In this document: one piece after another, positions 5,945-8,073 of the stretch
Numbering within the stretch: position 1 is the stretch's first letter
Layout of the letters: the number at the start of each line of letters is the position of its first letter
DNA from: a virus
DNA: 31,911 bases
IMG/VR virus record: IMGVR_UViG_3300037961_001434
Span: 5,071-36,981 of that record
Direction: 5' to 3' (one strand)
Made by a program: the position numbers and the translations under genes
Notes under the pieces: generated by a model
Seen by the model: the letters and a program-made list of their open reading frames with translations, nothing else
Databases searched by the model: none
Told to the model about the DNA's origin: nothing

Positions 5945-7330
5945 ATGGCTAACATTAAGCAACTCCAGGAAAAGTGGGCACCCGTTCTGAATCACGATTC
6001 TCTGCCCGAGATTGAGGATTCTCATAAGAAAGGCGTAGTCGCACAACTTCTGGAAAACCAAGAAAAAGCATTAACTGAAGAAGCTGGTATCCTTAACGAG
6101 ACTCTTCAAACAACAGGTTATACTGGTGGCGATACTGCAACTGGTCCTGTTGCTGGTTTCGATCCTGTACTGATCTCTTTGATCAGACGTTCGATGCCTC
6201 AATTGATCGCCTATGATATTGCAGGCGTTCAACCGATGACTGGTCCTACTGGACTGATCTTCGCAATGCGTACTAACTACGGTAGCGAAAGAGATCCTAA
6301 CGCTGGCGGTTACGATGAAGCATTCTTCAACGAGCCTAACGCTGGTTTCTCTGGTGGTGCTGGTAACGCATACGATCCTGGCGCTTCCTCTTCTGCTAAC
6401 AACGATGCTGAGGGTAACAACCCTGCACTGTTGAACGACTCCCCTGCTGGTACATACGAGCAGACTGGTGACGCAACAGGCATGAGCACTTCTACTGCAG
6501 AAGGACTTGACGACAGCAACGCAACTAACACTGCCTTCCGTGAGATGGGTTTCTCCATCGAGAAGGTAACCGTTACTGCGAAGTCTAGAGCACTCAAAGC
6601 TGAGTACAGCATTGAACTTGCTCAAGACCTTAAGGCAATTCACGGTTTGGATGCCGAGCAAGAGCTCGCTAACATCCTCAGCACTGAAATCCTTGCTGAA
6701 ATCAACCGTGAAGTTGTTCGTACCATCTACACAAACGCTGTTGCTGGTGCTCAGAACAACACTGCTAATGGCGGTATCTTTGACCTCGACGTTGACTCCA
6801 ACGGTAGATGGTCTGTAGAGAAGTTCAAAGGTCTTCTGTTCCAAATCGAAAGAGATGCTAACGCTATCGGTCAGCAAACTCGTCGCGGGAAGGGCAACAT
6901 CCTCATCTGCTCTGCTGATGTGGCTTCTGCTCTCGGTATGGCAGGCGTACTTGACTACTCTCCTGCTCTTAACGGCAACAACGCTCTTACAGGTGTAGAC
7001 GATACTTCCTCTACTCTCGTAGGTACACTCAACGGTAAGATCAAGGTCTACGTTGATCCTTATTCTGCTAACGTTGCAGATAAGCACTTCTATGTTGCTG
7101 GTTACAAGGGTACTTCCCCTTATGACGCAGGTCTGTTCTATTGCCCTTACGTTCCTCTTCAGCAGGTTCGTGCGATTAATCCTAACACCTTCCAGCCCAA
7201 GATTGGCTTCAAGACTCGTTACGGAATGGTTTCTAACCCCTTCGCACAGGGTCTTACACAAGGTAGCGGTGCCCTTACTGCTAATACTAACAAGTATTAC
7301 AGAAGAGTTCAGGTTGCTAACCTTATGTGA
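5945..7330 (+). CDS. gp23: Major capsid protein gp23
   Basis: The 461-aa product (T4 gp23 521 aa precursor) forms the capsid hexamers. Recognisable T4-family segments are DPVLISLIRRSMPQLIAYDI (residues about 75-95), GPTGLIFAMRTNYG, and the C-terminal KIGFKTRYGMVSNPFA. Candidate gp21 cleavage sites of the L/I-x-E type occur at residues 43-45 (LTE) and 50-52 (LNE), which would remove a short propeptide. CGGAG lies about 11 bases before the ATG. A terminator follows the stop codon. Confidence 0.97.
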   Translation: MANIKQLQEKWAPVLNHDSLPEIEDSHKKGVVAQLLENQEKALTEEAGILNETLQTTGYTGGDTATGPVAGFDPVLISLIRRSMPQLIAYDIAGVQPMTGPTGLIFAMRTNYGSERDPNAGGYDEAFFNEPNAGFSGGAGNAYDPGASSSANNDAEGNNPALLNDSPAGTYEQTGDATGMSTSTAEGLDDSNATNTAFREMGFSIEKVTVTAKSRALKAEYSIELAQDLKAIHGLDAEQELANILSTEILAEINREVVRTIYTNAVAGAQNNTANGGIFDLDVDSNGRWSVEKFKGLLFQIERDANAIGQQTRRGKGNILICSADVASALGMAGVLDYSPALNGNNALTGVDDTSSTLVGTLNGKIKVYVDPYSANVADKHFYVAGYKGTSPYDAGLFYCPYVPLQQVRAINPNTFQPKIGFKTRYGMVSNPFAQGLTQGSGALTANTNKYYRRVQVANLM

Positions 7331-7350
7331 TCTAATCACAACTAATTTTA

Positions 7351-7377
7351 AGAGGGTGCTTGACACCCTCTTTTTTT
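7351..7377 (+). terminator. Intrinsic terminator after gp23
   Basis: AGAGGGTG (7351-7358) pairs perfectly with CACCCTCT (7364-7371) around a 5-nt loop, followed by a run of seven T. The loop and 3' arm also hold the -35 box of the next promoter, so the structural operon ends where the next transcript's promoter begins. Confidence 0.93.
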
Positions 7378-7387
7378 ATGCTATAAT
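7360..7387 (+). promoter_or_regulatory. Consensus sigma-70 promoter for the RNA after gp23
   Basis: TTGACA (7360-7365) and TATAAT (7382-7387) are both perfect matches to the sigma-70 consensus with a 16-bp spacer. The -35 box lies inside the gp23 terminator hairpin. Expected start of transcription is near 7394. No protein gene follows for 390 bp. Confidence 0.82.
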
Positions 7388-7601
7388 TTATTTGTAAGGA
7401 AGGGACGCCTGACTTACAGGGAGTGACTGAATAAACTTACTGGCATTTTGCTAGTTAAGGTGATAAGACAGGGGTGGTGCCCGCTGCTGGGAACAGTAGA
7501 ACTACATACCAAGTAGGTCTTAGGCATAGAAGTATTTCTAAACTGTAGAAATGCCCTTCTATTGTTGGTATACAGGAATCCAACCTCCCACACACACCAC
7601 A

Positions 7602-7609
7602 CATAAATA
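7602..7609 (+). promoter_or_regulatory. Late-type motif CATAAATA inside the ncRNA
   Basis: CATAAATA matches seven of eight bases of the late consensus. A transcript from it would begin near 7620, cross the terminator at 7631-7669 and, on read-through, reach the small ORFs at 7783 and 7833. Weak evidence. Confidence 0.3.
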
Positions 7610-7630
7610 GTGACGAATATCGTCGCCACC

Positions 7631-7669
7631 GAGGGAAGTCTGGTCAGAATCAGACACTCCCTCTTTTTT
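7631..7669 (+). terminator. Intrinsic terminator of the ncRNA
   Basis: GAGGGA (7631-7636) pairs with TCCCTC (7658-7663) and, inside, GTCTG (7638-7642) pairs with CAGAC (7651-7655). Six T follow at 7664-7669. It would end the transcript from the 7360 promoter at about 275 nt. Confidence 0.88.
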
Positions 7670-7782
7670 ATTGTAATGTATCTTCGTATACAAAAAATAA
7701 GAGTTATGTCAAGGGACAAAGTACCTATGGGTTTTGTCAGAGTTTGTATATAAGTAGTAGTAGAATTAAGCGAGGTGGAAAA

Positions 7783-7863
7783 ATGATCCCTACCCTTTAC
7801 CATATTATGAAGACCAGTTACGGAGTGAGATCATGCACAACATCACATCGAGCAATCAGTTAA
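7783..7863 (+). CDS. Possible 26-aa leader peptide
   Basis: An ATG at 7783 follows GAGG (7772-7775) with 7-base spacing and opens a 26-codon frame ending at TAA 7861-7863. It overlaps the start of the 58-aa gene at 7833 by 31 nt in another frame. The good ribosome site and overlap suggest a coupled leader peptide, but the product has no recognisable features and may not be made. The 113 bp before it (7670-7782) hold no gene; a late-like box TATAAGTA occurs at 7749-7756. Confidence 0.3.
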   Translation: MIPTLYHIMKTSYGVRSCTTSHRAIS

Positions 7864-8009
7864 ACGAGTGGCGTCATTTCGAGGATACAGTCGATACTAT
7901 TTCTGTCGAGAACCAGAAACTAAATGACTACTACGAATGTCTGATTGAATGCGAGATCACACATCAAAATTCATGTAAACGAATTTGCAAGGAGGTCCTT
8001 ATGACCTAA
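7833..8009 (+). CDS. Small hypothetical protein, 58 aa
   Basis: The ATG at 7833 is preceded by GGAG (7822-7825) with ideal 7-base spacing; the frame ends at TAA 8007-8009. The product is acidic and polar, likely helical, and carries three cysteines (two in YECLIECE, one near residue 48, plus C52). A terminator follows at 8036, so this is probably a single small transcription unit with the upstream leader. No family is recognised. Ribosome site, codon use and flanking terminators make it a likely real gene. Confidence 0.68.
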   Translation: MHNITSSNQLNEWRHFEDTVDTISVENQKLNDYYECLIECEITHQNSCKRICKEVLMT

Positions 8010-8035
8010 ATAAATTACCGTGTGAAGGAAGTGTT

Positions 8036-8062
8036 GAGGGGCGTAAATGCCCCTCTTTTTTT
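8036..8062 (+). terminator. Intrinsic terminator after the 58-aa gene
   Basis: GAGGGGC (8036-8042) pairs perfectly with GCCCCTC (8049-8055) around a 6-nt loop, followed by seven T. Confidence 0.93.
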
Positions 8063-8066
8063 AATG

Positions 8067-8073
8067 CTAAATA
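8067..8073 (+). promoter_or_regulatory. Late-type motif CTAAATA
   Basis: CTAAATA sits immediately after a terminator and 23 bp before the ATG at 8097. The same box recurs at 8287-8293 and 8875-8881 before the next small genes, suggesting a series of individually started late transcripts. Confidence 0.5.

Follow-up and report, generated by a model that had tools for sequence, protein, structure and literature searches.

A manA RNA with a predicted promoter and terminator of its own behind the major capsid gene of a T4-like phage

Behind the major capsid gene gp23, the window (a 31,911-nt stretch of the 36,981-nt viral record IMGVR_UViG_3300037961_001434) carries a full-length manA RNA that is flanked by its own predicted promoter and terminator. 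This copy adds a new member to an RNA family that is already known. On the evidence of sequence comparison, we propose with a probability of about 0.55 that manA is a self-contained early transcription unit, whose product is a discrete RNA that acts away from its neighbours.

The stretch behind gp23 carries a manA RNA

An earlier note on this DNA had described a strongly structured RNA gene of a family that it did not recognise, and had proposed a covariance search against Rfam. This search (cmscan) assigns positions 7393-7594 to manA RNA (RF01745) with a score of 168 bits (E 3.4e-45) against a family gathering score of 55.2 bits, and the match spans the entire model (positions 1-192 of 192); the reading as an unknown family was therefore dropped. 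In line with this assignment, the window copy shares with the manA motif the consensus helices, including the long-range closing helix, which are kept by covariation, and an origin in marine T4-like cyanophages, its gp23 region being nearest to those of Kyanoviridae phages. The wcaG, PhotoRC-II and glutamine (glnA) RNAs are likewise structured RNAs of T4-like cyanophages, but they constitute other Rfam families, none of which matches this stretch.

Weinberg et al. 2010 describe manA as a marine motif of cyanophages and gammaproteobacteria, note that sugar and nucleotide genes are common beside it, and grade it as a likely cis-regulator and possible riboswitch (PMC2864571). In cyanophage S-CREM1, manA is listed as a cis-regulatory RNA (PMC9964418), and the Rfam type of RF01745 is Cis-reg. 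No experimental work on manA was found in the literature searched, and no mention of it was found in the available portion of the P-HM2 expression paper. In the description of the motif (PMC2864571), manA forms the 5' leader ahead of metabolic genes, whereas the window copy has its own terminator and no gene of its own.

Covariation supports the manA fold

Positions 7394-7670 fold with an energy of -92.7 kcal/mol versus a mean of -71.0 kcal/mol for shuffled sequences (z -4.3), and none of 200 shuffles folds as well. The Rfam fold was then evaluated in 61 distinct relatives, which were chosen by the seed GGG(A/T)GTGACTGAA(T/C)AAACTT, so that constancy is partly by construction within the seed segment and not elsewhere. 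In these relatives 93.1% of the cells are paired, and 28 of the 54 pairs show changes on both sides. Specifically, both-side changes occupy 292 cells on the Rfam structure, compared with 64 in shuffles and 13 to 38 when the partners are slid by 1-3 columns. Because the covariation far exceeds both controls, the manA fold, which is complex and pseudoknotted with constant loops, is real (Table 1). The GGAA-capped hairpin that the earlier note had seen is real and is part of the Rfam fold.

Two helices that had been proposed together with this hairpin, and for which compensatory changes in relatives were the suggested check, are possible in this one sequence and find no support among the relatives. 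The pairing of 7474-7479 with 7595-7600 is formed in 50% of the cells, has no compensatory change and performs no better than the slid controls; its 5' strand, GUGGUG, forms the loop of a hairpin and does not vary among the 61 relatives, whereas the suggested downstream partner CACCAC is not conserved. For the pairing of 7506-7512 with 7565-7571, the middle letters are conserved, the covariation does not rise above shuffles, and the helix clashes with the supported helix 7564-7568/7580-7584.

Stops are present in all three forward frames of 7394-7670, as had been stated, and a protein-coding reading of the manA stretch was rejected as spurious in view of the covarying RNA pairs and of these stops in the window copy. 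ORFs are annotated inside manA in S-SSM5, P-SSM4, P-HM2, P-HM1 and S-TIM4 (minus strand) (L122 3093-3420; L138 2041-2214; L136 2059-2233; L129 2532-2708; L143 1678-1869, in our locus numbering), and the corresponding hypothetical proteins are probably spurious ORFs.

Table 1. Features of the window from gp23 to the terminator of manA
Feature	Position	Strand	Evidence
gp23, major capsid gene	5945-7330		
gp23 intrinsic terminator	7350..7372	+	9-bp stem, T run
Sigma-70-type promoter: TTGACA 7360-7365, 16-nt spacer, TATAAT 7382-7387	7360..7387	+	12/12 match
manA RNA (RF01745)	7393..7594	+	168 bits; covariation, 61 relatives
First manA hairpin, 7393-7398/7413-7418, at predicted 5' end	7393..7418	+	Rfam alignment; 5/6 pairs changed on both sides
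Long-range closing helix, GGGAG 7419-7423/CUCCC 7585-7589	7419..7589	+	100% paired (61 sequences), constancy partly by construction as the 5' strand falls in the search seed; one compensatory pair
Multibranch domain, outer helix 7464-7469/7517-7522	7464..7522	+	Rfam alignment, covariation
Hairpin with GUGGUG loop, inside multibranch domain	7471-7482	+	
GGAA-capped hairpin, inside multibranch domain	7484-7499	+	
Third hairpin inside multibranch domain	7502-7516	+	
Hairpin 7526-7532/7556-7562	7526..7562	+	Outer stem 98.6% paired, 6/7 pairs changed on both sides
Inner stem of the 7526..7562 hairpin	7535-7538/7548-7551	+	Poorly paired in this alignment (54%)
Hairpin 7564-7568/7580-7584	7564..7584	+	100% paired; 2/5 pairs changed on both sides
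Late-promoter-like site CATAAATA, between manA and its terminator	7602..7609	+	Fits NATAAATA of S-PM2 (PMC2984593)
3' module: hairpin 7610-7626 and terminator 7631-7669	7610..7669	+	Folds at -26.6 kcal/mol over 67 nt, z -5.7

The window copy has its own start and stop signals

The sigma-70-type promoter upstream of manA matches TTGACA/TATAAT perfectly and its -35 box sits inside the gp23 terminator stem, just as the earlier note had read it; the predicted transcription start at about 7393-7395 coincides with the start of manA. At the other end, the terminator that was said to close the RNA is found as GAGGGA..TCCCTC followed by six T. The description of an RNA gene with signals of its own therefore holds in its promoter, its terminator and its covarying fold. 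No gene lies between manA and the terminator, and the next substantial CDS beyond it is at 7833-8009. A cis-regulatory leader would form a 5' UTR without an intervening terminator, and at the window copy a predicted terminator intervenes; the predicted promoter and terminator expected of a trans-acting RNA gene are both present. These signals suggest that the RNA stands alone rather than switching the gene behind it.

A late-promoter-like site separates manA from the hairpins at its 3' side, the late promoter of S-PM2 being NATAAATA (PMC2984593). The 3' module (window 7602-7669; L123 ~2500-2566; L139 2001-2054) combines this type of site with AUAUCGUCGCC and a terminator apex GUCUGGUCA..UCAGAC. 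Similar modules with differing stem letters stand in other phages where manA is lacking: one follows hsp20 in Sf-FS3 and another precedes a 2OG oxygenase in Sf-CH11. The module may be a small late RNA of ~50 nt. Additionally, window positions 8006-8062 hold a recurrent unit consisting of a late-promoter-like CTAAATA/TATAAATA, a constant TACCGTGTGAAGGAAGT and a variable-stem terminator. This unit was found in 103 IMG/VR stretches; among 64 distinct sites, the promoter-like box is present in 45 and a T run in 61. It has no Rfam match and is possibly a small late phage RNA.

manA is present or absent at the gp23 site and sits at different sites in close relatives

The arrangement of promoter, manA and terminator behind gp23 recurs in S-SSM5, P-HM1 and MED4-213. 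The S-SSM5 copy (GU071097, 116393-116586) resembles that of the window in its place behind gp23, its promoter within the terminator and its 3' module, with 90% identity over 371 nt, but it is annotated as two hypothetical proteins (SSSM5_127, SSSM5_128). Read by eye, the manA of metaG-MbCM1 precedes a less stable-looking hairpin with a T run (GGACT..AGTCC-ATTTTT), weaker than a terminator that the scan would call, and P-RSM4 and S-TIM4 have manA behind gp23 without a nearby terminator. In Syn30, Syn19 and S-CAM22, one plain gp23 terminator is followed by the same downstream block as in the window; whole-record scans, one of which gave no positive-control signal, found no manA in these three phages. 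The downstream block (7680-8070) matches 176 phage records, versus approximately 40 for the manA stretch. As the block is kept in phages that lack manA and is far commoner, the genes after the window copy are independent of manA. The earlier suggestion of ligand sensing on behalf of the small genes behind the RNA is therefore unlikely here, given also the terminator between them.

Whole-record scans with stricter Rfam filters covered 20 records. A single manA was detected in 14 of them, comprising 13 complete phage records and one IMG/VR record, and the remaining 6 gave no hit. In two additional blastn searches, 37 places were returned from 37 records each time, one per record. P-HM1 and P-HM2, which are filed under one species, each carry a single manA at different sites, with the reciprocal site empty. 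In P-HM1, manA lies behind gp23, flanked by a promoter and a terminator of its own, and the gp32 leader is without manA; in P-HM2, manA lies between a TATAAT and the gp32 leader, and a single plain gp23 terminator stands in place of promoter, manA and terminator.

manA begins at promoters and is followed by unrelated sequences

An exact core search of IMG/VR returned at least 120 stretches; after phage records and the window had been added, the collection comprised 111 distinct loci whose flanks are complete. These loci were chosen by an exact 20-nt seed and are mutually related, so that the counts below are not independent; terminators and genes were called by simple scripts. In 104 of the 111 loci, the sequence immediately upstream of manA contains a promoter that matches at 11 or 12 of 12 positions, compared with none of 111 shuffled flanks. 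In nearly all loci the -10 box ends 20 to 32 nt upstream of the GGGAG strand, and this spacing makes the predicted transcription start coincide with the first manA helix. The -35 box lies within an apparent upstream terminator in 45 loci, as in the window.

The 3' sides, by contrast, are varied. A simple terminator occurs within 110 nt in 18 loci, a conserved hairpin (a T run may or may not follow) in 24 and a tRNA gene in 12, three of the latter via the conserved hairpin, while 60 copies have none of these in the first 110 nt and run straight towards a gene. manA thus has unrelated 3' sides and no shared expression platform. The first genes after manA fall into approximately 30 unrelated groups, led by gp32 (21), talC (14), a DUF6561 protein (8) and ThyX (7), and including a phosphomannomutase/HAD-like protein (6) and Hsp20 (4). 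Late-promoter-like sites occur within 60 nt 3' of manA in 20 loci versus 4.2 expected from shuffles (maximum 10), which means that late transcription could resume downstream without manA.

The tRNA gene directly 3' of manA is an Asn, an Asp or a Gly-like one (L003, L014, L022, L034, L035, L065, L095, L105, L110 and L114 are among these loci), and the manA RNA could be freed by processing of the adjoining tRNA. The conserved hairpin, GACCUAAGAUGCAACU..GGGCAGAUGGUC, follows manA by 8-17 nt in many loci (L010 522-560, L012 3492-3530, L017, L020, L031, L056, L074, L115 and others). The gene beyond it may be gp32, talC, a tRNA or another one; the hairpin rarely occurs apart from manA and matches no Rfam family. 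In L017 its outer stem has AACC..GGUU. A GNR(A/G) loop is found in 79 of 81 copies with this 3' hairpin domain versus 74 of 89 without it (p 0.002, a value that ignores relatedness, in a set partly selected by the domain). At most, this association hints that the GNRA hairpin and the 3' hairpin domain make a tetraloop-receptor contact.

Cellular host copies were also considered. Two of the three matches in bacterial assemblies were judged from their ORFs to be phage contigs, one T4-like in a Prochlorococcus single cell and one in a gammaproteobacterial bin. The former (L125), 189 kb long and filed under a Prochlorococcus single-cell genome, looks T4-like from its gp46/gp47-like and UvsW-like proteins.

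Discussion

The early genes of T4-like cyanophages (cyanomyoviruses) are believed to be transcribed by the host's sigma-70 polymerase in unmodified form (PMC2984593). Since the promoter of manA is of this sigma-70 type, manA is probably transcribed early in infection. In the working that we propose, host RNA polymerase would start at the promoter embedded in the gp23 terminator, transcribe manA from its first helix and stop at the terminator ending at 7669, yielding an RNA of ~277 nt without coding sequence. This product would work early as a discrete RNA by means of its pseudoknotted core and its constant loops, GUGGUG among them, and late transcription could restart downstream from the 7602-7609 site, leaving out manA. 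We infer the discrete product and its action in trans; single copy, varied neighbours, relocation in close relatives, unrelated 3' ends and tRNA-linked copies favour such an action, and manA is probably not the leader of the genes after it. The family assignment, the fold and the promoter at the matching place in 104 of 111 loci speak for a self-contained unit. Against it, 60 of 111 copies run straight to a gene, as a leader would, gp32 and talC recur as next genes, and sugar and nucleotide genes are common.

These last points are what keeps alive the published interpretation (PMC2864571), which we consider less probable though well worth retaining: manA would be a riboswitch or other cis-regulator of the next gene, in which metabolite sensing sets read-through or translation, and the terminator at 7631-7669 would be the expression platform in this phage. 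Its Cis-reg type in Rfam and a complex pseudoknotted fold with constant loops agree with this interpretation, as do the copies that lead directly into genes, often of sugar or nucleotide metabolism. However, a metabolite switch is difficult to reconcile with one copy per genome ahead of some 30 groups of gene, with 3' sides that share no expression platform, with P-HM1, which has gp32 without manA and manA without gp32, and with the persistence of the window's following genes in phages without manA; moreover, no manA ligand was found in the literature searched.

HK022 put RNAs are antitermination elements. A leader of early transcripts that acts in cis on polymerase or mRNA regardless of the gene, by antitermination of this kind or as a stabilising 5' end, would account for the varied contexts and for manA nearly always beginning at a promoter, often with hairpins or terminators and then same-strand genes beyond, but it is improbable because many early transcripts would need manA, of which each genome has a single copy, and because gp32 does without the manA in P-HM1 that precedes it in P-HM2.

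Returning to the self-contained early RNA, a more tentative extension, to which we give slightly less than even odds, is that marine T4-like phages carry manA as a mobile early RNA gene and not as a cis-regulator. It would be present once per genome, act in trans on host or phage machinery, and insert either at the start site of a promoter already in place or as a cassette of promoter, manA and terminator, often with the 3' hairpin domain (GACCUAAGAUGCAACU..GGGCAGAUGGUC) that is absent from Rfam. No discussion of promoter anchoring, single copy, relocation or this hairpin domain was found in the available parts of PMC2864571 and PMC9964418.

Since 2010, manA has stood as an orphan candidate riboswitch. 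Should it instead be a free-standing early RNA, its partner would have to be sought in host or phage machinery and no longer among metabolites and neighbouring genes, and the P-HM1/P-HM2 pair together with the gp23-site cassette would make this reading directly testable in culture.
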